Of a DNA stretch of 64,000 nt, positions 24,340 through 44,964 are shown one piece after another. The notes beneath the pieces were generated by a model that worked only from the letters and a program-made list of their open reading frames with translations, had not been told where the DNA came from and made no database searches. The position numbers were made by a program, and so were the translations under genes. The stretch comes from Pseudidiomarina indica. Lineage in GTDB: Bacteria > Pseudomonadota > Gammaproteobacteria > Enterobacterales > Alteromonadaceae. Numbering within the stretch: the first letter of the stretch is position 1; each line of letters begins with the position of its first letter. The stretch is taken from contig NZ_FMXN01000006.1 in the NCBI RefSeq assembly GCF_900104245.1, positions 1-64,000 on the forward strand, read 5' to 3'.

Positions 24340-25189
24340 GAAATACCTTTTGACTCCAATGAAAATGTTCGATGACCGGAATGTCTCGGCGAATACTTGC
24401 TAATGTACTAGCATCAGCGAGCGCAGTGGCAATCCCCGGCTGGTCGGGGTCAGTGTCAGCTAAAATGCGGCCCCAGCCGTCAATAATCAATGCATGACCG
24501 TATGTTTGTCGGCCATTTGCATGCACCCCAGTTTGGGCGGCAGCCACTAAATAACTTTGCTGTTCAATGGCGCGAGCACGGGTTAGCGTATGCCAGTGTG
24601 CCTCACCCGTCACTTGTGTAAAAGCCGACGGTAATAACAAAATATCAGCGCCTGCTAACCGTAAGGCGCGGAATAATTCCGGAAAGCGCACATCATAACA
24701 TACCGCCATGCCTAACACGCCAAATTCAGTGGTCACGGTGACAATATCGGTGCCCGGCTGCGTCCACGCTGATTCACGATAATGTTTGGTGCCATCGGCC
24801 ACCGTCACATCAAATAAATGGATTTTGTTGTAACGAGCAACACATTCGCCCTGTGGATTAAAGACCAAGCTTGCAGCACTAAATTTAACGGCATCGACAT
24901 GATCAATTAAGGGGAAGGTCCCGGCCACAAGCCAAATTTGGTAGCGCTTTGCTAACGCGGCGAGCGCCTCTTGCAATGGACCTTGCCCAGGCAGCTCGGC
25001 TAATTGTCGCTGGCGTTTATCCGCTGCCCCAAAGCAAAGGCAAGCCTCGGGTAATACCACTAACTGCGGCCGATGCTCCGGCAGCTGTTGCAGCAATTGT
25101 TCAATTTGCTGCAAGTTCTGGTGGGGATCTGGACTACTGGTGAGTTGCAGGGCGGTCAATTGCACCTGCGGGATTGTCGGATTCGACAT
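24320..25189 (-). CDS. Carbon-nitrogen hydrolase (nitrilase family, Nit/YbeM-like)
   Basis: This cytoplasmic omega-amidase-like hydrolase has the nitrilase triad: Glu48 (VVLPEACL), Lys122 (RYNKIHLFD) and Cys164 ([15 protein letters not shown]). The pattern is closest to the Nit1/Nit2/YbeM group. Deaminated glutathione is the known substrate for that group, so this may be a repair enzyme. The ATG at 25189 has GGAG 8 nt upstream and lies 56 bases inside yhdP. The order yhdP-nitrilase-tldD is a recurring arrangement in Alteromonadales and Vibrionales. Confidence 0.88.
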
Positions 25190-28100
25190 GGTTCAACTCC
25201 TCAGCGGGAATCGGTGCTGCGCGCGAATCACGCGCCACTTCTTCAATAACAGGATCATCCATGGTGCCGGAAATTCGATACTCCAATCGACTAATCACCT
25301 TAGCATCATGCAGCATGCGATCAATCACTAATGCTGCTAAACCTGACGGCGGATTAATCATCCAAGCAAAAATCACGGGCAAACTCGAAGTGACTTTTGG
25401 CACAAACTGTAAATCATAGGCGAGCTCGCGGGTTGTTAAATTCGCGCTGCCTTTGACTTCCATATCACCTGCACTGCCATTGAGTTGCGTATTCTGAGTC
25501 ATCACCACCCCATCGGCGACCTCAAACTCACCCGAAAAGTTGGTATAAAATAAACCGTTGGCGAACACGTCACGAAAATCAAACCGCAGTTTGCGCAAAA
25601 TACTATCCAAACTTAGTAGTGAGAATAAGCGCGCTCCACGGTCACTCACATCATTTAAGTAACCCTGCCCGAGCGCCCAAGTAACACTACCATTTAAGGT
25701 ATCAAGCTCTAACTGATGGGGAGCCGCCATATAGTGGAGGTCGAAATCAATGGTCGCGCTACTATCGCGAACCATCGAGGTGATATCGTAGCTATCGAGA
25801 AACTCGCCAAAATTACTGCTTTCAAAGCGCCCGAACAGACGAGTTTGGGGGTACTGTTCCGCTGTTTCTAACAGCCAGTGTCCTTTAGCGTCGAGCTGAT
25901 GCCCGCGGTAATGCGCCGTCAGCTTAGCCAGTTCTAATTGGTGTTCCTCGCCACGTAAGTGAATACTCACCTCACCCAACTCATAGTGGTCATAGCGGCA
26001 ACGTTTGCAATCAAGCAGCAATTCAGGAAGCCCAGCAAAGTTACTCGGCAACCACGTCGGCGTCGCGTCCTCGGCCGCGACAGCAGCAGAATCATGCTGT
26101 TGCCATTCGATTCGAGGGATATCTATATACTCTGCATCGATTTGGATTTGGGCGGCTTGTTCAGCATTCTTTTGGCGCCAATAAACATCCGCCAACACTT
26201 GCTCTGCTTCAACGCGCAACTGCCAATCATCTTGTTCAGGGTGAGCCACAATTTGCACGCCATCGAATGGCATGTCCAGCCAACGGAGCTGCTGACTTTC
26301 AAACTGAATTAAATCTGGGCGCAACACCCGAGCCACATCACTTTCACCGGCACCTTCAGGGAGCCAGCGGTTCAGTTGAGTCATGACCGCGAGCCAGTCA
26401 TCAATCACTCCCGTCTCCAGGCCAATTTCCACATTAAAGAGCGGTGCGTGTCGCCCTCTGTTCAGCCCCAGCGTAGGCTGTTGCAGTTGGCCAATTCGTG
26501 CATAGCCACTTTGTAATTCGCTCAGATCACCATTGAGCTGGAGCTCCAGCAAACCATACTCGCCAATTTCTGCATTGACAAGAACACTATCAGGGTCGCC
26601 CGATACGGTAAGTTCTAGCTCTTGGGCAACCCCTTGCTCTTTACCGAGCGGCGCAGGTAAGTGGGCGCTCACATCGTTTAAAGAGGCCGACTGATACCAG
26701 CGGAATGAATACCCCCCCTCATTGGGCAGGCTTAAATTGAAGTCTGCTTGCCACGGCATGGTTCCCATCAGTAGCGGTGCGAATTCATCCAATTGCCAAC
26801 GGCCATCCACTTGCATGGCCACAAAATAATCCTGCTCTCGTTGTTGGGTGGACAATTCTGCTGCAAGTGGGAAGTCACGCCAGTTCATGGTTAGCGTGGG
26901 TGCGGTGATCACATCGTTATGGTAGTGAATACGGCCGTCGACCTGAGTGAAGGTTTCTTTTAAGCTACGCACATAAATTTCTGCGCCAGCTAAATCTGCG
27001 TAGCCTTTGGCCACCACATCCGGGGAGTTTGTTAGCGGAATCATTAACTCCAAATAGCCCGTCACTGGCCCACTCAGTTGAACTTCAGCTAAGGTTCCCC
27101 CTAAACTTCCAGCTAACGGACTGTCATCAAAAACGGGCTTCAGCTCGTTGGCGTTGCCGGCGATGCTTGCGGTAATATCTAAACGCGCATCGTCGCCTGC
27201 CACTAAGTCTGGAATCACCACATCGGCCCGTGCCACATCAATCAACCCAATGAGTCCATCGGTAGCCGTAATATGCATGCGCTCATTTCTAAAGTTCACG
27301 ATGGCGTTTGCATCATACACCGGCCGCCAATCAGGCTGGAACTTGTATAACAACCCTGAAATACGTGCCCGCGCTTCAAATAATCCTTCATTGTTGTGGT
27401 ATGGGAAATCTTCTAAGGCGCCTCGCCAGACCATGGCAAGATCAGTGGCATAACCATCCTGAATCGCCATCGAGAGATAGTCATGCAGACTATCCCCCAT
27501 CACAATAGGTAGATGGCGTCGAAGCACATCAGCAGAAATTGGAACTTCGTTTAAACTACGCGCAAGCGCATCAATATGTACGGACTCAGAAGAGGGGGTG
27601 ATGGTCGCGGCAACGCCGATGGGCAAGCCAGGTAATCGAATCTCACTATCCGGAGCAATTTGTAAACGCCAGCTGTCCGCACTCCACGAAAAGGTGCCGG
27701 CAACCGTCAGTTGATCAATTGGCCAAGCGTCGTCTTCATCCAGCGCGTCACTACGAAAAGCTGCATCCGTGCCATACAACTGCCACACCATCTGTTGATC
27801 ACGCCCGTGCACCTTAAGATTTACGTTGCTTAACCCTGGCACTCCGGCGAACTCTCCCCAACTCAGGTTTTCGCCTGCGGCGTACCAGCGTGCTCCTTGT
27901 TCCACATGATGATAGTAGGCGAGATCAAGAACACCTTGTGTATCTCGTTCAGAGAATTGCTCAACCACCTTAGCGCCCTGACTGCCCAACAAGTTCAATA
28001 GTTCCACCAAGGGTGCGAGCGGCATCCCTTCCAAACTCATGGCGGTGGTGGTCGGAGTATCTTCCCAACTAAAGGTGGGCAACACCCAGCTGCGATCATT

Positions 28101-29039
28101 GTGCTCAATGGTCAGCGGGTTCGAATTCACGCGCCAACCATCTGCATACGGGCGTAACTTGAGTTCTCCGTGGGGAATGCGAAGTTGATGGCGTTGCTCA
28201 CCGACCCGCCACTGTAACTTTTGTTCCCCCAATTGCAGTAACCCATCGGTAAACTGGTTTTGTTCAAAGTTCAACCACATGTTGTAATTAAAGGTGGCCG
28301 CTTGAATCTGTGTATCAATAATTTGTTGCTGCACCCAAGGCGTGATATCCAGCTGATTAGCCGCCACATACACTTGGCCGCTCAATGCATGCAGTTCTGA
28401 GCCATGCATATCAATCATCACGTCCAGCGTGTTTTCGGTCACCTCAGAAAAGGCCAGCTTCCCGACCCCATAATGGCGCTGACCTTGGTTGGCCCACCGC
28501 AATTCTTGAATATCGATGGTACGCATCACGCCCATCAAATTCACCAGCTCAACAGAACTCTCACGCACCTCAATATTGTCTAATTGATCCAGCAGCAAAT
28601 TGCCTAAATTAGTCGATAATTGAAGAGGTTGGGAGCTACTTTTACCGTAACTGTCGCGTAAGTCATAGTGCAATCGCATGCCATTTAACTGCACCTGCGC
28701 TAACTGCACATTGAACGCCCGCGCACTGCCCCAAAAATCAATCACCACCCGTGCTTCATCAATTTCGACCCGAGTCGCTTGTTCATCATCGGTCAGTAAC
28801 ACGAATTGATGGAGAATTAGTTCAGGTCCGCTACGACTCCAGTCAGCGCTGATTTGTGCTAACTGCACATCAAGTGCGTATTGGTTTGCTAGAAATTGCT
28901 CGACGTGTTCGGTCACATCGGGTAATTGGGGCAGGAGGTAACGCAACGCGCTCAACAATAAGGCGAATAAGACCAAGGCTGTGGCCAAGGTATAGAGCAA
29001 TGAGCGCCAGAGCCAGCGCACCGCGTTGCGAAGTGCCAT
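25134..29039 (-). CDS. yhdP: AsmA-like envelope protein YhdP
   Basis: YhdP is a giant AsmA-like protein spanning the envelope and implicated in phospholipid transport to the outer membrane, together with TamB and YdbH. It has 1301 residues with one N-terminal transmembrane helix (about 9-33) and a long beta-rich periplasmic body, typical of repeating beta-groove folds. The C-terminus resembles AsmA (LTTRELAYDLQFVPKVTSSLPV) and ends in a short acidic tail. The start shares one base with the rng stop (TAATG). Length and context match E. coli YhdP (1266 residues). Confidence 0.93.
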   Translation of the reverse strand: MALRNAVRWLWRSLLYTLATALVLFALLLSALRYLLPQLPDVTEHVEQFLANQYALDVQLAQISADWSRSGPELILHQFVLLTDDEQATRVEIDEARVVIDFWGSARAFNVQLAQVQLNGMRLHYDLRDSYGKSSSQPLQLSTNLGNLLLDQLDNIEVRESSVELVNLMGVMRTIDIQELRWANQGQRHYGVGKLAFSEVTENTLDVMIDMHGSELHALSGQVYVAANQLDITPWVQQQIIDTQIQAATFNYNMWLNFEQNQFTDGLLQLGEQKLQWRVGEQRHQLRIPHGELKLRPYADGWRVNSNPLTIEHNDRSWVLPTFSWEDTPTTTAMSLEGMPLAPLVELLNLLGSQGAKVVEQFSERDTQGVLDLAYYHHVEQGARWYAAGENLSWGEFAGVPGLSNVNLKVHGRDQQMVWQLYGTDAAFRSDALDEDDAWPIDQLTVAGTFSWSADSWRLQIAPDSEIRLPGLPIGVAATITPSSESVHIDALARSLNEVPISADVLRRHLPIVMGDSLHDYLSMAIQDGYATDLAMVWRGALEDFPYHNNEGLFEARARISGLLYKFQPDWRPVYDANAIVNFRNERMHITATDGLIGLIDVARADVVIPDLVAGDDARLDITASIAGNANELKPVFDDSPLAGSLGGTLAEVQLSGPVTGYLELMIPLTNSPDVVAKGYADLAGAEIYVRSLKETFTQVDGRIHYHNDVITAPTLTMNWRDFPLAAELSTQQREQDYFVAMQVDGRWQLDEFAPLLMGTMPWQADFNLSLPNEGGYSFRWYQSASLNDVSAHLPAPLGKEQGVAQELELTVSGDPDSVLVNAEIGEYGLLELQLNGDLSELQSGYARIGQLQQPTLGLNRGRHAPLFNVEIGLETGVIDDWLAVMTQLNRWLPEGAGESDVARVLRPDLIQFESQQLRWLDMPFDGVQIVAHPEQDDWQLRVEAEQVLADVYWRQKNAEQAAQIQIDAEYIDIPRIEWQQHDSAAVAAEDATPTWLPSNFAGLPELLLDCKRCRYDHYELGEVSIHLRGEEHQLELAKLTAHYRGHQLDAKGHWLLETAEQYPQTRLFGRFESSNFGEFLDSYDITSMVRDSSATIDFDLHYMAAPHQLELDTLNGSVTWALGQGYLNDVSDRGARLFSLLSLDSILRKLRFDFRDVFANGLFYTNFSGEFEVADGVVMTQNTQLNGSAGDMEVKGSANLTTRELAYDLQFVPKVTSSLPVIFAWMINPPSGLAALVIDRMLHDAKVISRLEYRISGTMDDPVIEEVARDSRAAPIPAEELNHVESDNPAGAIDRPATHQ

Positions 29040-32120: not shown

Positions 32121-33215
<1,095 letters not shown>

Positions 33216-33292
33216 TTATCAAGCTGCCATGCTGCGAGCAAGCGTCATTGCATGGCTTTTAACCTAGCTTTACTTGCGCTATTAACCCTGAA

Positions 33293-33796
33293 TTAATTCG
33301 TACATTGGCCTTGACGAATATAGCCTTGACTCTGAATACAAATATAGCGGGAGTTAACCCCTTGAATCTCTATCTCTATTGGCGCATTGCCACACCATTC
33401 TGGAGTGCTGGCATGGGCCGTTGATACCGGACAGCCTAAACTATTGAAACGAATTCCATTACTCGCATTAGGTAAACTTGACGCCACATTTACTGCAAGT
33501 GCACTGGGAATCGTCAAAACTCGTTCGGCGACAACTACCGCACCACAATCAACGGGGGTTACTGTTGTTGCAGAAAAGTTAACTCCGTAGCAGTCTTGAA
33601 TTGTATCCTGCATTGCGCGCTGCTGTTGCAAGCGCAACAGACTCATCAGCTGCCCTTGATAAGTCACCTCTTCAACCCCTGCTTTACCAAACATACGAGG
33701 CCCTGCGGTAGCGGCTAAAATCCCTACCAACACGATAACAATAATTAACTCAACCAGCGTCAAACCTCGTTGCCGCATAGGTCTTAAGCTTGTCAT
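33293..33796 (-). CDS. mshC: MSHA minor pilin MshC-like prepilin
   Basis: This type IV prepilin has a short basic leader cleaved after Gly (RQRG^LTLVELIIVIVLVGIL), a Glu at mature position 5 and a hydrophobic alpha1. The following 'QLMSLLRLQQQRAM' and a C-terminal disulphide-type Cys pair with IQSQGYI fit MshC better than MshA or MshB. Its 167 residues are the right size. It lies between mreB and mshD, but on the strand opposite to mshD. Normally mshC stands between mshA and mshD on the same strand, so it appears displaced. The symbol rests on sequence style and neighbourhood. Confidence 0.72.
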   Translation of the reverse strand: MTSLRPMRQRGLTLVELIIVIVLVGILAATAGPRMFGKAGVEEVTYQGQLMSLLRLQQQRAMQDTIQDCYGVNFSATTVTPVDCGAVVVAERVLTIPSALAVNVASSLPNASNGIRFNSLGCPVSTAHASTPEWCGNAPIEIEIQGVNSRYICIQSQGYIRQGQCTN

Positions 33797-33861
33797 AGAT
33801 GGTTCACCTTAGTGCTGCTCGTAGCTGATAAATACCGCACCACGTATTTTACCGAATTTCT

Positions 33862-33872
33862 AGTATGTAGTG
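33862..33872 (+). repeat. Left arm of an 11-bp inverted repeat flanking mshDOPQ
   Basis: The sequence AGTATGTAGTG here recurs as its exact reverse complement at 40499-40509. The two arms lie in the non-coding DNA at either end of the reversed mshD-O-P-Q block. The match does not extend beyond 11 bp, so chance cannot be excluded. Confidence 0.45.
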
Positions 33873-33963
33873 TAAACTAAAAAACCACAGTATGAAGAAC
33901 AATATATAAACATCGGTATAAAAAACAGGTAATCTAGACCAATCGATATTAACGGGGATCTGC

Positions 33964-34521
33964 ATGCGCACTTTTGGCGTTACTCCACGCACCAATAAAG
34001 GTTTTACATTAGTCGAGCTCATTATTGGGATCGTAGTGCTCAGCTTGTCCGTGGTGATGCTTGCTGTGCTGATTTTCCCGCAGGCGCAACGCAGTGCCGA
34101 ACCCTTGTTACAAACTCGGGCAGCCGGACTAGGCCAAGCCCTCCTCAACGAAATCATGAGTAAAAGTTTTGATGAAAACAGCGACCGCAGCAGTGGTATC
34201 GAGCGCTGTAGCGTTGAAGCTGCTGCTCCTCCTTGTACGCTACCTGCTAATCTCGGCGACGATGGTGAGGTACGAAGCGATTTCAACGATGTCGACGACT
34301 ACCGCGGTTTAACATCATCAAGTACCAATTTAACCGACGTCTTCGGAGCCGATATCGCTGCTCGCTACAACGGCTTTGATTACGAAATTCAAGTGTCCTA
34401 TTACGACCCAAACTCGGGTGCCGATCAGGCCAATATCACCCGCTATAAACTAATAACCATAACCATCACCACCAGCTTAGGACAAAACTTTGAATTTAGC
34501 GCCGTGCGAGGAAATTTTTGA
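33964..34521 (+). CDS. mshD: MSHA minor pilin MshD
   Basis: MshD is a minor prepilin of the mannose-sensitive haemagglutinin pilus. The leader (NKG^FTLVELIIGIVVLSLSVVML) is followed by PQAQRSAEPLLQTRAAGLGQALLNEI, a stretch typical of MshD, which resembles PilV-like prepilins. The 185 residues and the N-terminal ATG with GGGGAT upstream are convincing. It is the first gene of a rightward mshD-O-P-Q unit. The 167-base AT-rich gap to mshC must supply its promoter, and a TATAAA at about 33917 is a candidate -10. Confidence 0.9.
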   Translation: MRTFGVTPRTNKGFTLVELIIGIVVLSLSVVMLAVLIFPQAQRSAEPLLQTRAAGLGQALLNEIMSKSFDENSDRSSGIERCSVEAAAPPCTLPANLGDDGEVRSDFNDVDDYRGLTSSSTNLTDVFGADIAARYNGFDYEIQVSYYDPNSGADQANITRYKLITITITTSLGQNFEFSAVRGNF

Positions 34522-35399
34522 TGAATAACTTGCGGCACACGTTAAGCCCACTGCCCCGCTCTAACCTTCAACGTGGCTTTACCTTAATCGAACTGATCGT
34601 CGTTATCGTTATTTTAGGTATTCTTGGCGGTTATGTGTTCTCGTACGTTGGTTTTGGGGCGCAAATCTACGTCGATACTACTGCTCGCGAGCAGCTGATG
34701 TCGCAATCAAGATTTGCTGTAGAACGCCTCACCCGAGAAATTCGTAATGCCGTGCCACGCAGTGTCCGCGTAGCCGCTGATAACAGCTGTATTGAATTTA
34801 TGCCGATTCTTGCTAGCAGCCAATATCTGCAAGTACCACGACAAGGACCTAGCGCCAGCGACCCGCTGTTAGTTATCGAGCCGCGAGCGGATCAAGGCGT
34901 CAATTTGATCGGCCAATACCTGCTGATTTATGCATCGACACCCAATTTTATCTACAACCCGACGCAAACCGAGCGACGCAAGATTATTGACGCTATCGTC
35001 AGCACCGGCGATGATCATGTGGTTGAAATAGCGTACACCGATAGCATCAGTTACTTTACCGGTAACAGCCCCGCACAGCGTTATTTTATCGGAGGCCAGC
35101 CCATCAGTTGGTGCTATCAACAAGCTACGGGCCAACTCTGGCGTTATACCGGCTATGGGCTCAATGCCAACGCATCAACCCTAGCCCAACTGCAACGTGC
35201 GCTTACCACTAGCGCCGAAGTGATGGCTGAAAATCTCACCAACGATTTAACCTTAACCACACCTGAGCGGCCCTTTATAGTGGACGATGCCACCTTGGTC
35301 AGGAATAGTTTAGTGCATCTAGATTTACGCTTTGCCCGCGCCGCTGACACAGAGCGCCTACAACTATTGCAGGAGGTTCATGTTCCTAATGTGCCATAA
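34521..35399 (+). CDS. mshO: MSHA minor pilin MshO
   Basis: MshO is a PilW-like minor prepilin. It has a prepilin leader (LQRG^FTLIELIVVIVILGILGGYVFSY) and a long soluble domain with an early 'SRFAVERLTREIRNAVPRS' typical of MshO and GspJ/PilW proteins. The ATG at 34521 shares a base with the mshD stop (TGATG), and an in-frame TTG just before it is not needed. The 292 residues match the family. Confidence 0.9.
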   Translation: MNNLRHTLSPLPRSNLQRGFTLIELIVVIVILGILGGYVFSYVGFGAQIYVDTTAREQLMSQSRFAVERLTREIRNAVPRSVRVAADNSCIEFMPILASSQYLQVPRQGPSASDPLLVIEPRADQGVNLIGQYLLIYASTPNFIYNPTQTERRKIIDAIVSTGDDHVVEIAYTDSISYFTGNSPAQRYFIGGQPISWCYQQATGQLWRYTGYGLNANASTLAQLQRALTTSAEVMAENLTNDLTLTTPERPFIVDDATLVRNSLVHLDLRFARAADTERLQLLQEVHVPNVP

Positions 35400-35868
35400 G
35401 CCCCTCCAGTACCACCGTAGTCGTGGCGCTGCCCTGCCGGTAGCGATTTTTATCATCGTGGTGATGGCCCTGCTCGGGGCGGCCATGGTCAGAGTTATTG
35501 GCGATGCGACCCAAGGCGTCGTCAGCGATGTGATTGGCGCTCGCGCCAACAACGCAGCTCGCTCCGGCGCTGAAATATTTTTGGTAGCACTGTTTGAGAA
35601 CGAAGGCATGGTAACCACAGGGCTCTGCGCTAACCGTAGTACCACCAGTACGTTCGACCCTACCGATAACGATAGCAGCCCTAACACTTATAACTTTGTT
35701 GAAGCGGGCTTACAAAACTGTACTGCCACTGTCTATTGTGATGTGGCTGAAATCACCAGCCCCGTTGTCGTCAACCATTATCGAATCGTCGCTCAAGGCA
35801 GCTGTGATGCCGGCGACATGATTTATTCACGCGAAATCATGCTGGAGGCAAGCAATGCGTCACTTTAA
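35380..35868 (+). CDS. mshP: MSHA biogenesis protein MshP
   Basis: MshP is a PilX-like pilus component. A basic N-terminus (YHRSRGAALPVAIFIIVVMALLGAAMVRV) provides one membrane helix, followed by a small Cys-containing domain. AGGAGG lies at 35371-35376. ATG 35380 is 3 nt from it and ATG 35389 is 12 nt away, so the exact start is ambiguous. The gene overlaps mshO by 20 bases and mshQ by 14. Confidence 0.85.
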   Translation: MFLMCHKPLQYHRSRGAALPVAIFIIVVMALLGAAMVRVIGDATQGVVSDVIGARANNAARSGAEIFLVALFENEGMVTTGLCANRSTTSTFDPTDNDSSPNTYNFVEAGLQNCTATVYCDVAEITSPVVVNHYRIVAQGSCDAGDMIYSREIMLEASNASL

Positions 35869-38800
35869 CAACCTTGCCCTACTGGTCATTGCGCTAGTTT
35901 TGTCGCTAGCGAGTGAGAGTGTTGCTGCCGCAACGTACAACTTAAAGCAAAATGTGCCGCCAGGCTGCACTCAGCAAGGGAATAACCCGGTATTTTGTAG
36001 CAATGGTTTGAATTTGAAGTGGAACGATATTATCGATGCGAGTCAGGTGTTGGTGATTAATGTTACGGGCGATGTGAATTTGCAAAATGCCCAAATCAAT
36101 GTGGGTAGCAATGCCGGGGTCACTATCAATGCCACGGGCAATATTACTACTGGCTCAGATTTCGCCATGCGAGGCTCGCTCAATGCCGATGGCAATGTTA
36201 GTTTTGGGAGTAGAAGCCAATTGGTCGGTAATGTCTCAGCCAGCCAAATTACGACTAACTCAAATGTCACCATCGACGGTTCAATCGATGCAGGGTCAGT
36301 AACACTTCGTTCCGGAAACAATATAAGTGGTAATGTTATGTCGAGCACCACGGTGAACACTGATTCAAATGTCACCATCGGGGGTTCGGTCTCCGGAACC
36401 GCGGTCATTCTCGGTTCACAGAACTCAGTCACGGGCCCTGTTACTGGCAGTTTATCCGTGTCATTACTGTCACCAGGGAGCCAATACGGTAACAATATCA
36501 TCTCTAACGGTCCGGTTTTTATTGGTAGCGGGAACCAAGTTAATGGCAACATCAGCGGTACTGACATCACAACTGATAGTCACGTTAATTTGACCGGTAA
36601 TATCACCGCCACGGGTATTTTTGATCTAGCCAGCGGCAGCCAAGTTACGGGCAATGTTAACGCGGGGAGTGTTCGCATTCGTGCATCGAATTCAGATATT
36701 ACTGGAGATGTTAGCTCAGCCGGCGATATTCTTATTGAGAGTGGCTCAGGGATTACCGGCAGTGCAGTGAGTGGTGACACCATCAAGATGTTAGATGCAA
36801 ATGCATACATTACTGGAGATGCGACAGCTACCAATGAAATCATCATTGGTTGGGCTGGAAGTATCGGTGGCGATGCGACAGCACCTCACATCCGAAACGA
36901 TAGCGGTAACAAAGACCCTGTTGGTGGCGGAGAGTATTGTGACTCCAGCAGCTCCCGTTTCCAAAACCATGCTTTCGCTTGTACCGCTGCTCCACCCGAT
37001 CCGGGTCCCGGCCCAGGACCTAGCCCAGGTGACCAATGCGAATTATTTAATGACCTTGCCGATTACGGTATTGTGGGCTCCAGTGGGTTTTATGCGGGCA
37101 ACAATTCTGAAATTAACAATAATAATATCGTAGGTAAAGGTAATACGCCGACGCCTATTGGCCTAGTTGCTACGATAGATTTAGATTTTCCGCCATTAAA
37201 CCCAGCAGTGTTTCCGAGCTTTAGCAGTCCTGGCACCGAACTAAAAAACGAAACTAACACGCCGCCGGGCACCTATGGCACCATCTTTACTGATAAAAAT
37301 AATGGGTTTTCATCAACCTCCGGTGGTGGTACCTATTACATAGACACGATACGTTTTTCAACGAACAATAATACGCTAGAACTCGGCCCTGGTGATTATT
37401 TCGTCAAAAACATGATTTTAGGAAACAACTCCAGCATCAATATTTCACCTGCTGGCTTGGTTCGCATCTATGTTTTGAACGGCATTACAGGCGGTAATGA
37501 TATCTCCTTTAATACCAATGGCTCGGTGGGTAATTTAGTGGTCTATTTGTATGAAGGTGCCGACTTCACCGTAGGTAACTATTGTAATGGTGGCAATAAC
37601 TGCCCAAAGTTTACCTTTAACGGCCTGATTTACAGCCCTTATGCCACCACCGACATCACCTTTGGCAACAATACTAACTTTCAGGGCGGTGCTTTAACGC
37701 CTGGTAATATCACGTTTGGTAACAATACCGAGATTACTTACACCCCTGAGGTACAAGCAGCGGTGGTTGATGCGCTGGGTTGTGCACCAGTTGATGCTGA
37801 GGTTCATCATTATCGGCTGCTGCATACCACTGAAACCGTTGCTTGCTATGCGGCTGTGGTGCAAGTTCAAGCTTGTGCGGATGCAACCTGTAGCGCAACC
37901 TTTGATGATCCGGTGGGCATCACGGTGACGGCTGCGCTAGCCAATAGCAGTTGGCAAGGCGGTGACATCAGTAGCAGCAGCGGCACCAGCGCTAATCTTA
38001 ATTTTAGCAACGGTAGCGGCCTTGCCGGGTTACGCAACAGCAGCGGGGGTACGGCAGTCTTAACCCTCAGCAATGCGACGCCGACAGCGGTCGAAGCGAC
38101 CGAATGTTATGACCTATCAGGCACCACAGCCACCTCTTGTGAAGTGACCTTCAATTTGGCAGGGTTAGTTATCGTAGGCGCTGCTCCTGATCTGCCCTTG
38201 GCTACACAGATTGCCGGGGACGATTTCAATAGCGTCTTGCGTGCGGTGCGCACCAATACCACGACCGGTGCCTGTGAAGCCCGGCTAGAAGGGGCACAAA
38301 CCGTGAATTTAGGCATGGAATGCTTAAATCCGGGGGCATGCCAAGCTGGCCAATCCTACACCATCAATGGCACCGCCATCGGTCTCAATAACGCCGGCAA
38401 CGTGACTAATTATGAACCTGTTAATGTCACTTTTGACGCCAACGGTAATGCTCCTTTGGTGGCTAATAATTATTCCGATGTGGGCTTGCTACGGCTACAT
38501 GCCCAGATTGATTTGGCTGAAGGCGCAGAAAATCCACCTGCAGTACCCGACCCAGCCATGACCTTAACTGGGCAGAGCATGAATGATTTTGTGGTAAAAC
38601 CCTACCGGTTAGTCGCTGCGGCTATTGATGATGAGAGTAACTTTGTCATTGCCAGCGGCGCCGCCCCGCAGCCGGTATTTAAAGCTGCTGGCGAGCCGTT
38701 CAGTGTAATCGTACAAGGCCAGAACAGCGACGGGGCGGTAACGCCTAACTTTGGCAATGAGTTCCCCACTACCACCGTCACCGCAGGATTTCATTCCATG

Positions 38801-39907
38801 GTGTTTCCAAACCCTGCGGCAACCGACAGTAATGCTAGCAAATTGGTGAGCGGCACTTTTACTCCTAGCGGTGGCAATACCGGGCACTATATCGGCCACG
38901 ATAACCAATGGTTGGAGGCGGGAACTTTCAATCTACAAGCTGCTGCCATTGATTTTCTCGGTGCCGGTGATGCCGTCGAGCGTCCAGCCATCCCCACCGG
39001 ACGCTTTATTCCAGCGGCATTTGCGCTCGATCTGACATTTTCCAACGTGACCGATAGCTGTCCCGCTGGTGGTTTCACCTACATGGGTGAACCTGCCATC
39101 TCATTACAATATCAGCTGCGTGCTTTAAATACCTTGGGGCAGGTGACTAAAAACTACGATACGGCGCGTTATGCTCAAGCCAATGCCGATACGGCAACGA
39201 TCAAAGTCATCGCCAGCAGCCTCACTGATGTGGCTACCGATGAATTTGATCAGCGTGTGAGCATGACGGCACACCAACAATGGCAAGATGGCACCTTGAC
39301 CGTTATCGATTCAGCGGCGGCATTTTTGCGCCATCCAGTGCCAGCATTGATCGATGGCCCCTACCCTCAATTAAGGTTTGGCTTGCAGGTCGAAAATAAC
39401 GGCTTAGATACGATTGACTGGCACGCCGATCAGGTACTCTTTACCAGTGTGCAAGGAAATGCGGCTCAAATTCCAGGAAGCATTCATGCGGTGTATGGCC
39501 GCACTCTATTAGTGGACGTCTATGGACCTGACGTTGAGAACTTAGCCATAGTAATGCGCAACGAATACTTTGATGGGCATGGCTTTATCACCAACATCGA
39601 TGACAATTGCTTTGCTTACGACGCCGCTAACCTGAATATTTTAGCCGACCCAGCCGGCCTCAATGCAACGGCTGGAGGTGCGAGCACTGGCATCTTGGTT
39701 AACGGTGAGGTGCCTGCCGGCACTTGGTGGTGGCAAGCCCCCGGTGCCGTAGGCGAGTTTATCTTTGAGTATGATACTCAACCTTGGCTAGAATTTGATT
39801 GGAGTAATGACTCCAGTCTGCCCCTTGAAGATCCCTCAGCCACCGCCGGTTTTGGCCAGTACCGTGGTAATGATCGTATTATCTTTTGGTTAGAGCGGCG
39901 CAACTAG
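35855..39907 (+). CDS. mshQ: Large MSHA-associated surface protein MshQ
   Basis: MshQ is the largest MSHA-locus product and is thought to be an extracellular, adhesin-like protein. This one has 1350 residues. A signal peptide (about 1-25) is followed by about 300 residues of short Asn/Gly/Ser-rich repeats with a polymer-forming beta-helix look (TTNSNVTIDGSIDAG, NTDSNVTIGGSVSG). A Pro-Gly linker (PDPGPGPGPSPGDQ) follows near residue 385. A second beta-rich domain has 'FGNNTNFQGGALTPGNITFG' style repeats, and the rest resembles the DUF6701 C-terminus found in MshQ. GGAGG lies 7 nt before the ATG. The C-terminus ends in a short basic stretch (FWLERRN). Confidence 0.85.
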   Translation: MRHFNNLALLVIALVLSLASESVAAATYNLKQNVPPGCTQQGNNPVFCSNGLNLKWNDIIDASQVLVINVTGDVNLQNAQINVGSNAGVTINATGNITTGSDFAMRGSLNADGNVSFGSRSQLVGNVSASQITTNSNVTIDGSIDAGSVTLRSGNNISGNVMSSTTVNTDSNVTIGGSVSGTAVILGSQNSVTGPVTGSLSVSLLSPGSQYGNNIISNGPVFIGSGNQVNGNISGTDITTDSHVNLTGNITATGIFDLASGSQVTGNVNAGSVRIRASNSDITGDVSSAGDILIESGSGITGSAVSGDTIKMLDANAYITGDATATNEIIIGWAGSIGGDATAPHIRNDSGNKDPVGGGEYCDSSSSRFQNHAFACTAAPPDPGPGPGPSPGDQCELFNDLADYGIVGSSGFYAGNNSEINNNNIVGKGNTPTPIGLVATIDLDFPPLNPAVFPSFSSPGTELKNETNTPPGTYGTIFTDKNNGFSSTSGGGTYYIDTIRFSTNNNTLELGPGDYFVKNMILGNNSSINISPAGLVRIYVLNGITGGNDISFNTNGSVGNLVVYLYEGADFTVGNYCNGGNNCPKFTFNGLIYSPYATTDITFGNNTNFQGGALTPGNITFGNNTEITYTPEVQAAVVDALGCAPVDAEVHHYRLLHTTETVACYAAVVQVQACADATCSATFDDPVGITVTAALANSSWQGGDISSSSGTSANLNFSNGSGLAGLRNSSGGTAVLTLSNATPTAVEATECYDLSGTTATSCEVTFNLAGLVIVGAAPDLPLATQIAGDDFNSVLRAVRTNTTTGACEARLEGAQTVNLGMECLNPGACQAGQSYTINGTAIGLNNAGNVTNYEPVNVTFDANGNAPLVANNYSDVGLLRLHAQIDLAEGAENPPAVPDPAMTLTGQSMNDFVVKPYRLVAAAIDDESNFVIASGAAPQPVFKAAGEPFSVIVQGQNSDGAVTPNFGNEFPTTTVTAGFHSMVFPNPAATDSNASKLVSGTFTPSGGNTGHYIGHDNQWLEAGTFNLQAAAIDFLGAGDAVERPAIPTGRFIPAAFALDLTFSNVTDSCPAGGFTYMGEPAISLQYQLRALNTLGQVTKNYDTARYAQANADTATIKVIASSLTDVATDEFDQRVSMTAHQQWQDGTLTVIDSAAAFLRHPVPALIDGPYPQLRFGLQVENNGLDTIDWHADQVLFTSVQGNAAQIPGSIHAVYGRTLLVDVYGPDVENLAIVMRNEYFDGHGFITNIDDNCFAYDAANLNILADPAGLNATAGGASTGILVNGEVPAGTWWWQAPGAVGEFIFEYDTQPWLEFDWSNDSSLPLEDPSATAGFGQYRGNDRIIFWLERRN

Positions 39908-39962
39908 AGCAGTTTTGACAACCTTGTTAGAGTCGTTGTTATCGAGCTGCGGTTACGGCGCC

Positions 39963-40512
39963 TCAATAATTATTGTTATGGTTTGCTCTTCGGTACTGTT
40001 CTAGCTGCAAATTGCTCGCTTTGGTTACGACCAAGGAAAACTGACGTTCTTCTGTATAAGCAGAACCCACCAAGGTCAAATCAATAACGATTTCGTCATC
40101 GTGCTTAGCAAAGGCGTATTCATCTAAAATACCGCTAAAATCACGACCTTCAATAGCACTGCCTTGGTTTACCGAAAGTTCAATTAAGCGGGTTAGGCAA
40201 GGTTACGTTGGTAGCTGCACTAATCTACAAAAAAATAAGGGCTCTGTCATACCAAGCGGCGCCCGAGACAAGGTCACCGGCACCAAGACTTCGGTATCCC
40301 CAGCAACAAAGTCAATCTGTTCAGAAAAAGCGACGAAATGCTCACCTGTTAGTCAGTAAGGATACAGTTGGATAAGGGTTCGCGCTGCCCCCAGGTTGTT
40401 GGTCGGGATGCTCACTACCGCAGCCGCTGATTAATGCCATCAGCGCCAGCACTGCCAGCACCGGCTTCAAGAAAGCACTACCACTGAATTGTTTCGTCCA
40501 CTACATACTCAT
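39963..40512 (-). pseudogene. Decayed lipoprotein gene with a Calx-beta-like domain
   Basis: The minus strand reads as a broken lipoprotein of about 180 residues. It has AAAGGA followed by ATG AGT ATG, then a TAG at codon 4. After that comes a perfect lipoprotein signal peptide (FLKPVLAVLALMALISGC) and a linker. After a frameshift near 40370 comes FVAFSEQIDFVAGDTEVLVPV. After one more in-frame TAA near 40203 comes RDFSGILDEYAFAKHDDEIVIDL and a final ERQFSLVVTKASN. The last part follows the Calx-beta repeat pattern. There are thus two nonsense codons and one frameshift. The gene fills most of the otherwise gene-free 798 bases between mshQ and mshA. No intact copy is seen in the window. Confidence 0.7.
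40499..40509 (-). repeat. Right arm of an 11-bp inverted repeat flanking mshDOPQ
   Basis: CACTACATACT is the exact reverse complement of 33862-33872. It covers codons 2-5 of the decayed lipoprotein gene, including its early TAG. If it marks an inversion breakpoint, the breakpoint cut the 5' end of that gene. Confidence 0.45.
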
Positions 40513-40654
40513 GATCCTTTTGCCACCATCTTAATAACAACTTTTTAACCATACCTCAATTGCTTACAGCTGGGTACCACAAAAGCGTAGAGTTCAGGGT
40601 TGAATTTGGCATTATTCATTGTAATCAACTGCCCACTCGCTAAACGCCAGCCAA

Positions 40655-40684
40655 TAAAAAAGCCAACAAGCAACGCTTGTTGGC
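40655..40684 (-). terminator. Rho-independent terminator after mshA
   Basis: An 11-bp stem on the minus strand (AGCCAACAAGC/GCTTGTTGGCT) is followed by TTTTTTATTGG, about 20 bases after the mshA stop. A strong terminator fits a highly expressed major pilin gene at the end of the leftward msh transcript. Confidence 0.92.
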
Positions 40685-40705
40685 TTTTCGCTAGCTTGTT
40701 AGTGA

Positions 40706-41221
40706 TTAACAGCCATCATCCTCGATATCTATAGTCGGTTCAGCATTAGCTGAAGCCGAATCAGTGTATTTCAAGTAGCATGCTGCTGCTTCAACGCCAT
40801 CAGCATCATTTGAAGCTAATGTAATATCGGAAGAAATCACATAATAAACACCTGGGGTGGTAGGCGTACCAGGAGCTGTCTCGGTGTAATTGCCAGCCGT
40901 TTTTACAATAAAAGTAAAGTCTGCGGCATCCAAAATTTCTTTTAAGTCCGCCGCCTGTACATAACCGTTATAAGTATTGACGGTAGTATTTCCACGAACT
41001 TTAACAGTAGAAGCGCCTAGAGTTGCGCCTTGGATTGATGCACGACCATAAACCATTTGGTTTGCACCTTTAATGCTACCCTCAATACCTTTTAGGGTTG
41101 CAACACGAGCATCTGACGAGAAGTTAAAGAACTGTGGTGCTGCAGTGACAGCTAAGATACCTAATACCACGATTACAATGATCAGTTCGATCAAGGTAAA
41201 ACCTTTTTGTTGTGTTTTCAT
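40706..41221 (-). CDS. mshA: MSHA major pilin MshA
   Basis: This is the major structural subunit of the MSHA pilus. It is a classic prepilin: MKTQQKG^FTLIELIIVIVVLGIL, then an alpha1 extension running into APQFFNFSSDARVATLKG. The C-terminal part carries a Cys pair (residues in AAACYLKY and the terminal DDGC) for the disulphide loop. I chose the ATG at 41221 (171 residues) with AAAGGA upstream over 41230. It lies between mshB and a strong terminator. mshA and mshB are easy to confuse, and the position next to the terminator and the Cys loop favour mshA. Confidence 0.9.
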   Translation of the reverse strand: MKTQQKGFTLIELIIVIVVLGILAVTAAPQFFNFSSDARVATLKGIEGSIKGANQMVYGRASIQGATLGASTVKVRGNTTVNTYNGYVQAADLKEILDAADFTFIVKTAGNYTETAPGTPTTPGVYYVISSDITLASNDADGVEAAACYLKYTDSASANAEPTIDIEDDGC

Positions 41222-41276
41222 GTAGCACATCCTTTTAAAAAATGGGAATCCCCAAACTTAATGAATAAAACGAACC

Positions 41277-41879
41277 TTAATTATTACTAAAAATACTCAC
41301 CCCACCCGTGCGAGGGTTGTATACAAACGCATTACCGACGCTTAGGTAATCAGTTCCGCTAGGAGCCGATGCTAAGTTTTTAATAGTATTTGCGAGGTAG
41401 TACACGCAAATATCATTAACCCCGTTACTCTCACGTACCACGTAGTAACGGTTTTCACCCAACAGGGTAAAACTGGTGGTGGCTGTAGGTGCCCCCTGCA
41501 AAATTGCCTGCATGAGTGTGCGGCAATCTTCGCTGGTCATATTTAAATCGTGGGCGTCTAAGTTGTTGTTCCCACTCACCGGATAGCCCGTGCTGCCATC
41601 AACATTCACGGTAATGCCATCCATGATCACTTCGGCGCCAGCGCCATCCGCATTCCCTTTGGGTCGGCCGCGTAATTCCCATTCCGCTCGCACCAACCCG
41701 ACAGCACTGGCAAAACCACCAGCAACACCTTCAACCGCGGCATCTTCCGCGTCTGCGGTCACGCTAGTAAAACGAGGCAATGCAGAGGCTGCAAGCAGCC
41801 CTAGAATTACGACAACAATGATTAATTCAATCAATGTGAAACCACCATTTCTTAGTGGTTGAACCGGCTGATGCGTCAT
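41277..41879 (-). CDS. mshB: MSHA pilin MshB
   Basis: MshB is a minor pilin of the MSHA system. It has the leader LRNGG^FTLIELIIVVVILGLL, followed by SALPRFTSVTADAEDAAVEG and a 200-residue prepilin with EWELRGRP, as seen in MshB. It is located between mshG and mshA. The usual small mshF between mshG and mshB is absent: only 105 bases separate mshG and mshB. Confidence 0.88.
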   Translation of the reverse strand: MTHQPVQPLRNGGFTLIELIIVVVILGLLAASALPRFTSVTADAEDAAVEGVAGGFASAVGLVRAEWELRGRPKGNADGAGAEVIMDGITVNVDGSTGYPVSGNNNLDAHDLNMTSEDCRTLMQAILQGAPTATTSFTLLGENRYYVVRESNGVNDICVYYLANTIKNLASAPSGTDYLSVGNAFVYNPRTGGVSIFSNN

Positions 41880-41984: not shown

Positions 41985-43208
41985 TCATCGCCCTTGGTAT
42001 GCGTTCATCATGTCCCACAAGGGTGAAAATATTCCGGACGCCATAACAGAAATCATAACTGCAACAATTGCCAGCATAATAGGCTCAATTTTGGCGGTCA
42101 GACTTTTTAAATCGTAGTCCACTTCACGTTCGTAGTACTCCGCCACTTCGTTCAGCATTTCATCAATACGCCCGGTTTCTTCACCAACTTGCAACATCTG
42201 TAACACCAACGGGGTAAACAGTTGACTACTACGGGCCACGCGCGACAGGCTTTCACCCCGCTCAATGTTGCGGCGCATATCATTAATTTTTTGCCCCATC
42301 CAACGGTTATCGACTGCATCGGCCACCAGTCCAAGCGCTTGGGTAAGTGGCACGCCGGCACGCAGCATGGTGCCAAAGCTCCGAGAGAATCGGGTCAGCA
42401 AGGTCCGAAAAATAATGTCGCCCACCAAGGGCATCCGCACCTTGAGATAATCCCACCGAATCTCACCGTCAGGCGTATGAATGTACCGATAAACACTATA
42501 GACAGTGAGTCCGATTCCCGCTAATAACAAAAACCACCAGTGAACAAAGAAGTCCGACGTGCCGATCAGAATTCGAGTGGTTAAGGGTAATTCGGCATCA
42601 AATCGCGCGAACATACTGGCAAACGATGGAATCACAAACAGGTTTAAGATGAACATGGCGATGACAATGGTGATCAAGATAAAGGTGGGATACCGCATGG
42701 CGGTTTTCACCTGTTTCCGAGTATCTTGTTCCTTTTGCATATATTCCGTCAGTTGCATGAATGACTGTTCGAGCTGACCGGTGTTTTCGCCTACATGAAC
42801 AATGGCAACAAACAAGCGGGGGAATACCTTTGGGTGGGCCGCCATGGCCATGCTAAGTGGTCGCCCGCGTTCCAATTGCTCAACCACATCCGCTAAAACC
42901 TTGCCCAAACGACGGTTACCGGTGTTTTCGGCCAGCCCTTGCATAGCCCGTAACAGCGGAATCCCTGCTTTGGTTAAAGCGTACATTTGCCGAGTAAAAA
43001 CAATCAAATCATCACTGCTAATACCGGTGCCAAATAACTCGGAAACATCCAACTGAAAGCTGCTGGGCGCCTTATAAGGAGTTACTTGAATGGGAGTAAT
43101 GCCGCGCCGAATTAAGTTATCGGCCGCCCCCGCCTCCGAGTTGGCTTCTACCTCACCCTGCACCAACTGGCCATGCTCATTACGCCCACGATAGGAATAG
43201 TTAGCCAT
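41985..43208 (-). CDS. mshG: MSHA inner-membrane platform protein MshG
   Basis: MshG is the PilC/GspF-type inner-membrane platform protein of the pilus machine. It has two GspF domains (each opening FTRQMYALTKAGIPLLRAM or FSRSFGTMLRAGVPLTQAL) and three transmembrane segments. The ATG at 43208 gives MANYSYRGRNEHGQLVQG and 407 residues. It overlaps mshE by 8 bases. Confidence 0.95.
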   Translation of the reverse strand: MANYSYRGRNEHGQLVQGEVEANSEAGAADNLIRRGITPIQVTPYKAPSSFQLDVSELFGTGISSDDLIVFTRQMYALTKAGIPLLRAMQGLAENTGNRRLGKVLADVVEQLERGRPLSMAMAAHPKVFPRLFVAIVHVGENTGQLEQSFMQLTEYMQKEQDTRKQVKTAMRYPTFILITIVIAMFILNLFVIPSFASMFARFDAELPLTTRILIGTSDFFVHWWFLLLAGIGLTVYSVYRYIHTPDGEIRWDYLKVRMPLVGDIIFRTLLTRFSRSFGTMLRAGVPLTQALGLVADAVDNRWMGQKINDMRRNIERGESLSRVARSSQLFTPLVLQMLQVGEETGRIDEMLNEVAEYYEREVDYDLKSLTAKIEPIMLAIVAVMISVMASGIFSPLWDMMNAYQGR

Positions 43209-44964
43209 GGGTGGTCTCGCCGCCTTCATTTATTGCCGTAATGCGAAGCTCTTGTTCTTCAACGGTTTCGGCTAGGAACAACACTTCGTCGACAGTGGTG
43301 ATCCCCTGCAACGCATAGTCCAACGCAACTTGCGCCAGCGGTTTAAACCCGGGGGTTGCTTTGGCAGCTCGGGCGAAATCACGCATATTGCCTTCCCGCA
43401 ACGCATCCACCATGGCTTCATTCACCTCTAAGAGTTCAAACACCCCAATTCGGCCTTTGTACCCCGTATCGTGACAGTTTCGACAACCGCGTCCTTGAAC
43501 AAACCGCGTATCATCGGCGGTAATGCTGGGATTCATTCGCTGCAGCAGTGCTAATTGCTGGGGTTCTAACGTCGCGGGGCCTTGACACACCTGGCACACC
43601 CGACGAATCAATCGCTGAGCTAACACCCCGCGTAAGGCTGCCCCCACTAAATAAGGGGCCGCTCCCATGTCGATTAACCGCAAGGCGCTGGTAATCGAAT
43701 CGTTGGTGTGCAAAGTAGTTAAAACCAAGTGTCCGGTAATTGCCCCGCGTAAACCAATTTCAACAGTTTCTTGGTCCCGCATTTCCCCCACCATGATAAT
43801 GTCCGGGTCTTGCCGCAGCGTGGTTCGCAGAACATTCGAAAAGGAGAGGCCGATTTTGGGGTTCACTTGCACTTGTGAAATCCGTGGCAGGCGATATTCA
43901 ACCGGGTCTTCAACGGTAATAATTTTCTTTTCCGCACGGTTCAGTTCGCTGAGTGCGCCATACAGGGTGGTGGTTTTCCCCGAGCCAGTCGGTCCGGTGA
44001 CCACAAACATTCCGTATGGGCGATGCACTAATTGGCGCACGCGGCGCAAAATGTCCGCCGGCATGCCGGTTTGCTCTAAATCCAATAAGCCGGCTGATTG
44101 GTCCAGTAACCGCATGACACAGGATTCACCATGCTGAATTGGCATGGTTGAAACCCGCACGTCAATACTGCGGCCGCGCACTTTCATATTGAAACGGCCA
44201 TCTTGTGGAAGTCGTTTCTCGGAAATATCTAAACCTGCCATCAGTTTCAGGCGTAACACCAGTGCATTGGCAATATTGGCTTCGGTCAACACGTTTTCCT
44301 GCAACACGCCATCAACCCGCATCCGAATCCGCAGGGCATTGTCGTCGGGTTCAATATGAATATCCGAGGCACGAACTTGAACTGCATCGGTAAAAATCGA
44401 TTGCAGTAATTTGGCAACGGTGGCGTCATCGGCTTCTGCATCCAACGATAAAGCGCCAAGATCAAACTCGGTGCCTTCTTCCGTTTCGGTTTGCAGTTCT
44501 TTCGCAAAATGAACAATATCTTTGGTGCGGCGGTACAAGTTATCGAAAGCAGCATGCAATTGGTTATCAGAAACCACTGCCAAACGCATTTTGCGCGGTT
44601 GCAGGTAATTTGAAATCGTATCAACGGCGGCTAGATCGGCCGGGTCACTCATGGCGACCAATGCGGTGTCATCATCGGCATCAATCACCAACGCTCGGTG
44701 GCGACGGGCTTGCACCTCTGGCACTAAGTTTACCGCTGTTTGAGCAATTTTACGCTCGTGTAAGTCCAGCAGTGGAATATCCATCTGCTTGGCTAAGAAT
44801 TCCAACAACGCCCGCTCGGAGATCAGTCCTAAATCAATCAGGGTCACCCCTAACTTACGGCCGTTAATACGCTGATCATCCAGTGCTTGTTGCAGTTGTT
44901 CTTCGGTAATCAGCTGATGTTGTACCAACAAGTCGCCTAAGCGCATTTTCAAACGAGGGCGCAT
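43201..44964 (-). CDS. mshE: MSHA pilus extension ATPase MshE
   Basis: MshE is the hexameric assembly ATPase, PilB/GspE type. The N-terminal MshEN domain (RLGDLLVQHQLITEEQLQQAL and LGVTLIDLGLISE) binds cyclic di-GMP in V. cholerae and Pseudomonas homologues. Walker A is GPTGSGKTTT, the Asp box is IITVEDPVEY and the zinc tetracysteine lies at CQVCQGP ... GCRNCHDTGYKG. The 587 residues match the family. It begins 1 base after mshN. A c-di-GMP enzyme gene lies about 9 kb away in this window. Confidence 0.96.
   Translation of the reverse strand: MRPRLKMRLGDLLVQHQLITEEQLQQALDDQRINGRKLGVTLIDLGLISERALLEFLAKQMDIPLLDLHERKIAQTAVNLVPEVQARRHRALVIDADDDTALVAMSDPADLAAVDTISNYLQPRKMRLAVVSDNQLHAAFDNLYRRTKDIVHFAKELQTETEEGTEFDLGALSLDAEADDATVAKLLQSIFTDAVQVRASDIHIEPDDNALRIRMRVDGVLQENVLTEANIANALVLRLKLMAGLDISEKRLPQDGRFNMKVRGRSIDVRVSTMPIQHGESCVMRLLDQSAGLLDLEQTGMPADILRRVRQLVHRPYGMFVVTGPTGSGKTTTLYGALSELNRAEKKIITVEDPVEYRLPRISQVQVNPKIGLSFSNVLRTTLRQDPDIIMVGEMRDQETVEIGLRGAITGHLVLTTLHTNDSITSALRLIDMGAAPYLVGAALRGVLAQRLIRRVCQVCQGPATLEPQQLALLQRMNPSITADDTRFVQGRGCRNCHDTGYKGRIGVFELLEVNEAMVDALREGNMRDFARAAKATPGFKPLAQVALDYALQGITTVDEVLFLAETVEEQELRITAINEGGETTHG

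Follow-up and report, generated by a model that had tools for sequence, protein, structure and literature searches.

The mshC-D-O-P-Q segment of the MSHA pilus locus, with mshD-O-P-Q inversely oriented, as a probable exchangeable cassette in Pseudidiomarina and related genera

Gene organization of the MSHA locus

The locus for the mannose-sensitive hemagglutinin (MSHA) pilus of Pseudidiomarina indica was analyzed in a window of 64,000 nucleotides (contig NZ_FMXN01000006.1, positions 1 to 64,000). The gene calls bore out the layout given in the initial annotation, in which mshD-O-P-Q are located on the plus strand between minus-strand mshA on one side and minus-strand mshC and mreB on the other. 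The segment mshC-D-O-P-Q, coding for minor pilins and a likely tip adhesin, is quite probably an inherited and exchangeable cassette of single origin that has moved between genera, and not a phase switch.

The msh gene letters were assigned after the Vibrio scheme, using homology and position. On the outer flank, mreB (32121-33164, minus strand), identified by protein matches across relatives, is followed by the gene of an mshC-like minor pilin of 167 residues (33293-33796, minus), which showed an N_methyl match in the Pfam and NCBIfam scans and had the C proteins of relatives as its best match. This gene is divergent from that of an mshD-like prepilin of 185 residues (33964-34521, plus), with an intergenic region of 33797-33963 between them. 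An mshO-like prepilin of 293 residues (34518-35399, plus) comes next and, like the mshD-like protein, was identified by gene call, family scans and matches to relatives. The mshP-like protein of 178 residues (35332-35868, plus; annotated start probably too early) was recognized by gene call and matches to relatives, with no family match in the Pfam and NCBIfam scans. The mshQ-like protein of 1350 residues (35855-39907, plus), which contains a Bactofilin-like stretch and matches DUF6701 (PF20419, E 6e-105), is likely the tip adhesin. Beyond the block, the minus strand carries an mshA-like major pilin of 174 residues (40706-41230; Pfam and NCBIfam scans), mshB (41277-41879) and mshG (41985-43229), both from family scans, and mshE (43201-44964), named without a family scan from its position and matches among relatives. 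The prepilin N-terminal motif PF07963 was detected by Pfam scan in all five of A, B, C, D and O, and domain scans found both an inner-membrane platform protein (T2SSF) and a secretin (Secretin) in the cluster. The locus adjoins mreB. The collinear order A-C-D-O-P-Q-mreB, treated here as typical of MSHA loci and not as defining them, was not found in the window, where mreB and mshQ are on opposite strands.

A perfect 14-bp hairpin with A-rich and T-rich ends was located 3' of mshA (40658-40688; fold -19.1 kcal/mol, z -4.15); it is likely the terminator downstream of mshA, possibly usable in both directions. Between mshQ and mshA the minus strand also contains the remnant of a Calx-beta lipoprotein gene (39956-40512), broken by an early stop at codon 4, frameshifts and missing internal stretches. 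The remnants, distributed over three frames, match residues 1-53, 317-398, 564-624 and 626-640 of an intact 640-residue Calx-beta protein of the relative G015 (genomes and loci are cited by their G and L numbers). Intact relatives of this protein were observed near the MSHA loci of G015, G549, G556, G557, G545 and G456 in the stretches read. As none came from a collinear locus, the gene may belong to the inverted-type locus as an accessory.

Distribution and derivation of the inverted layout

That relatives would all share this order, which the initial annotation had set against its own proposal of a switch, proved largely true. D-O-P-Q were opposite to A in 18 of 26 Pseudidiomarina genomes (G023 from a partial locus), while four were collinear (G007, G009, G014 and G021) and four lacked a full locus, G025 having a fragment only and G001, G010 and G016 no DUF6701 match. 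The genus Idiomarina was mostly collinear (16 of 19 genomes, with two inverted and one in which the locus was lost). A match was found in 14 of 17 Aliidiomarina genomes, comprising eight inverted loci and two more on partial loci (G547 and G554, the other half of G554 being taken as L141 of the same bin), two collinear loci, one locus of a further type termed FLIP (G456) and one left unassigned (G545). In the stretches read, G549 was represented without mreB, and G553, G555 and G456 without mshA. G545, whose outer flanks are not in its contig, was labelled inverted in the trees and tallies below, as were G023 and G547 from their partial loci. Two additional records, from Aliidiomarina sp. B3213 and A. 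celeris, were inverted too.

Among the 132 genomes of the family with a Q match, a survey typed all except G525, which had no mreB match (131 genomes), and covered part of the second Q copies. Both genes were close together in 110 of these genomes and far apart or on separate contigs in 21. Of the 110, 104 had mshQ and mreB on the same strand with mreB downstream of Q, and the six with opposite strands all belonged to Pseudidiomarina, Idiomarina or Aliidiomarina; this strand test is blind to the FLIP layout, as G456 counts as same strand. In the rest of the order, the two genes were on the same strand in 75 of 75 genomes among the matches listed. No earlier report of the inverted mshC-D-O-P-Q layout was found in the literature covered, from which most subscription journals were absent.

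The initial annotation had inferred that the block was inverted. The layout is indeed derived, but a single inversion of D-O-P-Q out of A-C-D-O-P-Q-mreB was rejected on gene order, because mshC, which adjoins mreB beyond the block, keeps its original direction and would have stayed next to A. The observed order would require at least two rearrangements, namely a flip of C followed by a flip of C-D-O-P-Q, or an equivalent order of events. The mreB side of the FLIP locus of G456 (L112) corresponds to the state between these two flips. G456 and G553 have the same neighbours, a PEGA/FGE-domain gene on one side and a PAS-like gene, judged by eye, on the other, and the block is reversed between them. 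Placement of G456 either inside or outside the inverted clade was tolerated by the approximately unbiased (AU) test (p 0.43), and this genome represents either an intermediate or a re-inversion. In four Aliidiomarina loci (L112, L113, L109 and L110), mreB and the MSHA block are separated by a gene of about 620 residues (PEGA and FGE-sulfatase domains in L112, 4283-6148); a similar-looking open reading frame is present at the mreB/MSHA junction of G021, and a gap of comparable size in Idiomarina loci.

Gene phylogenies, exchange and the mshC/mshD element

A single clade with support of 99/97 united the D-O-P proteins of the 28 inverted-labelled loci, which come from all three genera, and trees holding any of the three genera together were rejected (AU p 1e-5, 4e-11 and 2e-7). 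The tree of mreB, mreC and rng, used as a backbone, mostly followed the genera, with G021 and G542 not firmly placed with theirs. The block genes conflicted with the backbone for D-O-P, more weakly for C, and mostly for Q (G548 excepted). The major pilin mshA did not follow layout between genera, as a single inverted clade was rejected (AU p 5e-16); Idiomarina as one clade was marginally rejected too (AU p 0.047). Runs of four to five consecutive mshA-like pilin genes were observed in L111 (G549), L117 (G557) and L063 (G035).

The same contrast was found within a single inverted Idiomarina genome, G432. Its E, G, B, A, mreB, mreC, mreD and rng were closest to collinear Idiomarina (A 56%, the rest 82-100%), and its C, D, O, P and Q scored best with inverted loci of other genera. 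This shift of affinity between A and C-D-O-P-Q was most pronounced in Q and D, and in C and O it was small.

Exchange on a recent time scale was indicated by the comparison with G015. Along a tract of 5.4 kb (33100-38500), DNA identity to G015 was 88-96% per 500-bp window, whereas the flanking windows reached 61-80%; two 100-bp windows in mshC dropped to 77 and 82. The right edge of the tract is sharp and lies inside mshQ (92 to 60), and the left edge, at about 33.1 kb, is close to where mreB has its 5' end. The backbone tree placed the window as sister of G011 plus G022, and G015, which itself groups with Pseudidiomarina, branched outside them, whereas the C, D, O and P of the window were 90-98% identical to those of G015 and just 54-61% to those of G011. 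Judged from these sequences, the copy at 33.1-38.5 kb is the product of a recent exchange with the lineage of G015. Moderately raised identity to G015 (73-87%) at 39.5-41.5 kb may be the trace of an older exchange. Such a sharp-edged recent tract was seen within the genus, and between genera only older exchange. Elsewhere in the window, a YhdP-like protein (25134-29039, minus) was observed to diverge much faster than its neighbours, with at most 69% identity to same-genus relatives versus 80-93% for rng (partial lengths).

The intergenic region between the divergent mshC and mshD contains a block at about 33864-33912 that was conserved in an alignment of eight species and in further loci. Its last part, the 15-nucleotide element AACAATATATAAACA (33898-33912, plus), is single-copy in the window's genome. 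Of 31 loci labelled inverted, 15, spread over all three genera, have the pattern of this element in the C-D gap; of 42 labelled collinear, among which L055 and L064 show Q alone, none has it. The conserved block is likely a divergent promoter/operator of the cassette. The mshA gene is directed toward mshQ, which occupies the opposite strand, and is closed off by a strong hairpin, so that the mshB/mshA promoter cannot serve D-O-P-Q and the block lies outside that transcription unit. The initial annotation had likewise read the block as cut off from the mshA promoter. The divergence of C and D around a conserved element further suggests that D-O-P-Q are probably transcribed separately from mshB-mshA.

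The 11-bp repeat, alternative explanations and comparison with known systems

The initial annotation had proposed that an 11-bp inverted repeat might mark a block that is still switched. The sequence AGTATGTAGTG was found exactly at 33862-33872 (plus) and 40499-40509 (minus), as described there, and had no further copy in the window or in the genome of 2,206,361 bases, where about one copy is expected from base count alone. When the two spans were shuffled by mononucleotides, 4 of 300 trials gave an equally long match, close to the few percent originally estimated. The arms were said to lie in non-coding DNA, which was correct for the left arm, intergenic and overlapping the edge of the conserved mshC/mshD block, but not for the right arm, which is the start of the broken lipoprotein gene and includes its codon-4 stop. 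G015, having the same layout, retained the left arm exactly and 10 of 11 positions of the right arm. The 11-mer was absent from both spans, with up to one mismatch allowed, in all 15 other same-genus inverted loci, as the initial annotation had named as evidence against a switch; the longest exact inverted match between the spans in these loci was 8. In the shuffle and match run the C-D span was just 0 or 31 nucleotides long in L036, L039 and L048 owing to over-long frames, and the arm search was repeated on all 17 loci with wider spans. The repeat looks like a chance match, and its two arms seem to be of unrelated origin. Another candidate pair of crossover sites, the leader-coding inverted repeats at 34575-34621 and 41157-41203 (47 nucleotides, 83%), was rejected as it lies inside genes and is due to the common prepilin leader motif.

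A reversible inversion that still toggles the minor pilins and MshQ is favored by the exact match, its occurrence as the sole two copies in the genome and its rarity in shuffles. Inversion of the block has occurred, because G456 and G553, members of one three-genome Aliidiomarina clade, carry C-D-O-P-Q in opposite directions between the same neighbours. That flip is nevertheless old, as the aligned flanking DNA of the two genomes differs by about 25-31%. Relatives other than G015 have not retained the arms (0 of 15), the right arm belongs to a decayed gene, and the layout is common to many genomes. No inverted repeat above chance was found at the block boundaries, that is, on the mreB side of mshC and in the Q-A gap, in any of 29 loci, and no recombinase gene was found among the genes identified around the block, a set smaller than all open reading frames of the window; the genome as a whole contains a single PF00239 protein, located on another contig, and a single IS110 fragment below the cut-off. 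The proposed switch through the 11-bp repeat was thus not supported, and we consider phase variation of any such kind very improbable. An artifact of assembly can be practically dismissed, since the window's genome is a draft of 31 contigs but many independent assemblies concur, including that of G015 with its single contig of 2,900,277 bases.

Independent rearrangement in the three genera, with no gene transfer among them, might be suggested by the collinear members of all three genera and by G456, which shows that rearrangement recurs. It is improbable, only slightly less so than the switch, as the D-O-P proteins of inverted loci group by layout and not by genus and the intergenic element is common to the three genera. 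A somewhat better, still unlikely, explanation is that the common ancestor of the three genera had both forms, either allelic or at two loci, and that later losses, with little transfer, sorted them. In its favor, the D-O-P clade is deep, G432 being just 41-51% identical in D, O and P to the inverted loci of other genera, and there are two Q copies in G014 and second copies distant from the locus in G538 and G539. On the other hand, the backbone tree places the two inverted Idiomarina genomes (G432 and G530) in a nested position next to collinear G537 and the tract shared by the window and G015 is recent, so that exchange does occur. As to these second mshQ-like genes, that of G014 was observed in tandem in L044, and those of G538 (L097) and G539 (L104) in stretches with no other matched MSHA gene.

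A single-origin module that crosses genera is favored because of the D-O-P clade, its contrast with the backbone, the affinity shift in G432 and the shared 15-nucleotide element. Several observations weigh against it. The D-O-P and C trees carry long-branch warnings, and the C tree has no single inverted group (3 changes), with genus monophyly weakly or not rejected (AU p 0.04-0.20), so that the membership of C in the cassette is less sure. In the collinear Aliidiomarina genome G506 only Q is clearly with collinear loci; for C, D and P, inverted loci give the best score by a slight margin. A quick Q tree placed the inverted G548 among distant Q proteins, which indicates that Q is replaceable on its own, and in a set confined to the genus, the AU test did not reject a tree that joins inverted with collinear Q (p 0.125). 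In the backbone tree, the inverted members of the genus fell into two clades, although a single clade was not rejected either (AU p 0.286). The exact 15-nucleotide element was absent from 16 of the 31 inverted loci, and no sigma-70 site was detected by a simple scan between C and D in the window; the C-D region of L042 had one, no more than in shuffles. The locus of G548 (L110) is also of note in itself, combining the inverted layout and D-O-P of the inverted clade with a Q whose neighbours in the tree are distant collinear loci; the replacement there seems to have affected mshQ only.

Under the cassette reading, the mshC-D-O-P-Q segment would be a heritable variant of the MSHA module for minor pilins and tip adhesin that arose once and later moved among Pseudidiomarina, Aliidiomarina and Idiomarina. 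The tract edges suggest that transfer most likely proceeded by homologous recombination in conserved neighbours such as mreB and within mshQ, with the copy in the window being recently exchanged with the G015 lineage, and D-O-P-Q would be separately controlled from the C-D block. A bolder version of this reading, to which we give somewhat less than even credence, is that C/D-O-P-Q forms a mobile, self-regulated tip cassette with its own control element, traded across species and genera between the fixed secretion genes and mreB, uncoupling the tip adhesin from the major pilin, and flipping as a whole over evolutionary time, as between G456 and G553. MSHA pili act in surface attachment, and their exposed tip proteins likely contact surfaces, hosts and phages. 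If the reading is correct, the secretion genes and the major pilin stay in place while a tip module with its own control is swapped across genera, which would let pilus specificity evolve and be regulated apart from pilus assembly. The naturally occurring collinear and inverted loci would allow testing whether minor pilins need co-transcription with the major pilin.

Surface-antigen and pilin loci diversify by homologous recombination between conserved flanks, and the MSHA locus resembles them in that an exposed, variable portion is exchanged while the neighbours on either side stay conserved; here, the two forms differ also in gene order, and one has its own conserved intergenic element. The IncI-type PilV shufflon and the Moraxella Piv systems likewise concern DNA inversion at type IV pilus tip or pilin genes. 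Those systems employ crossover repeats and a dedicated recombinase, in contrast to the present block, with no above-chance repeat and no linked recombinase among the genes identified around it. A close counterpart is the MSHA locus of V. cholerae, which is described (PMC4624765) as two operons, mshI-F for assembly and secretion and mshB-Q for structural proteins. The two loci share the same kind of gene set, whereas in the window C and D are divergent, D-O-P-Q are opposite to mshA, a hairpin follows mshA, and the structural operon is split.

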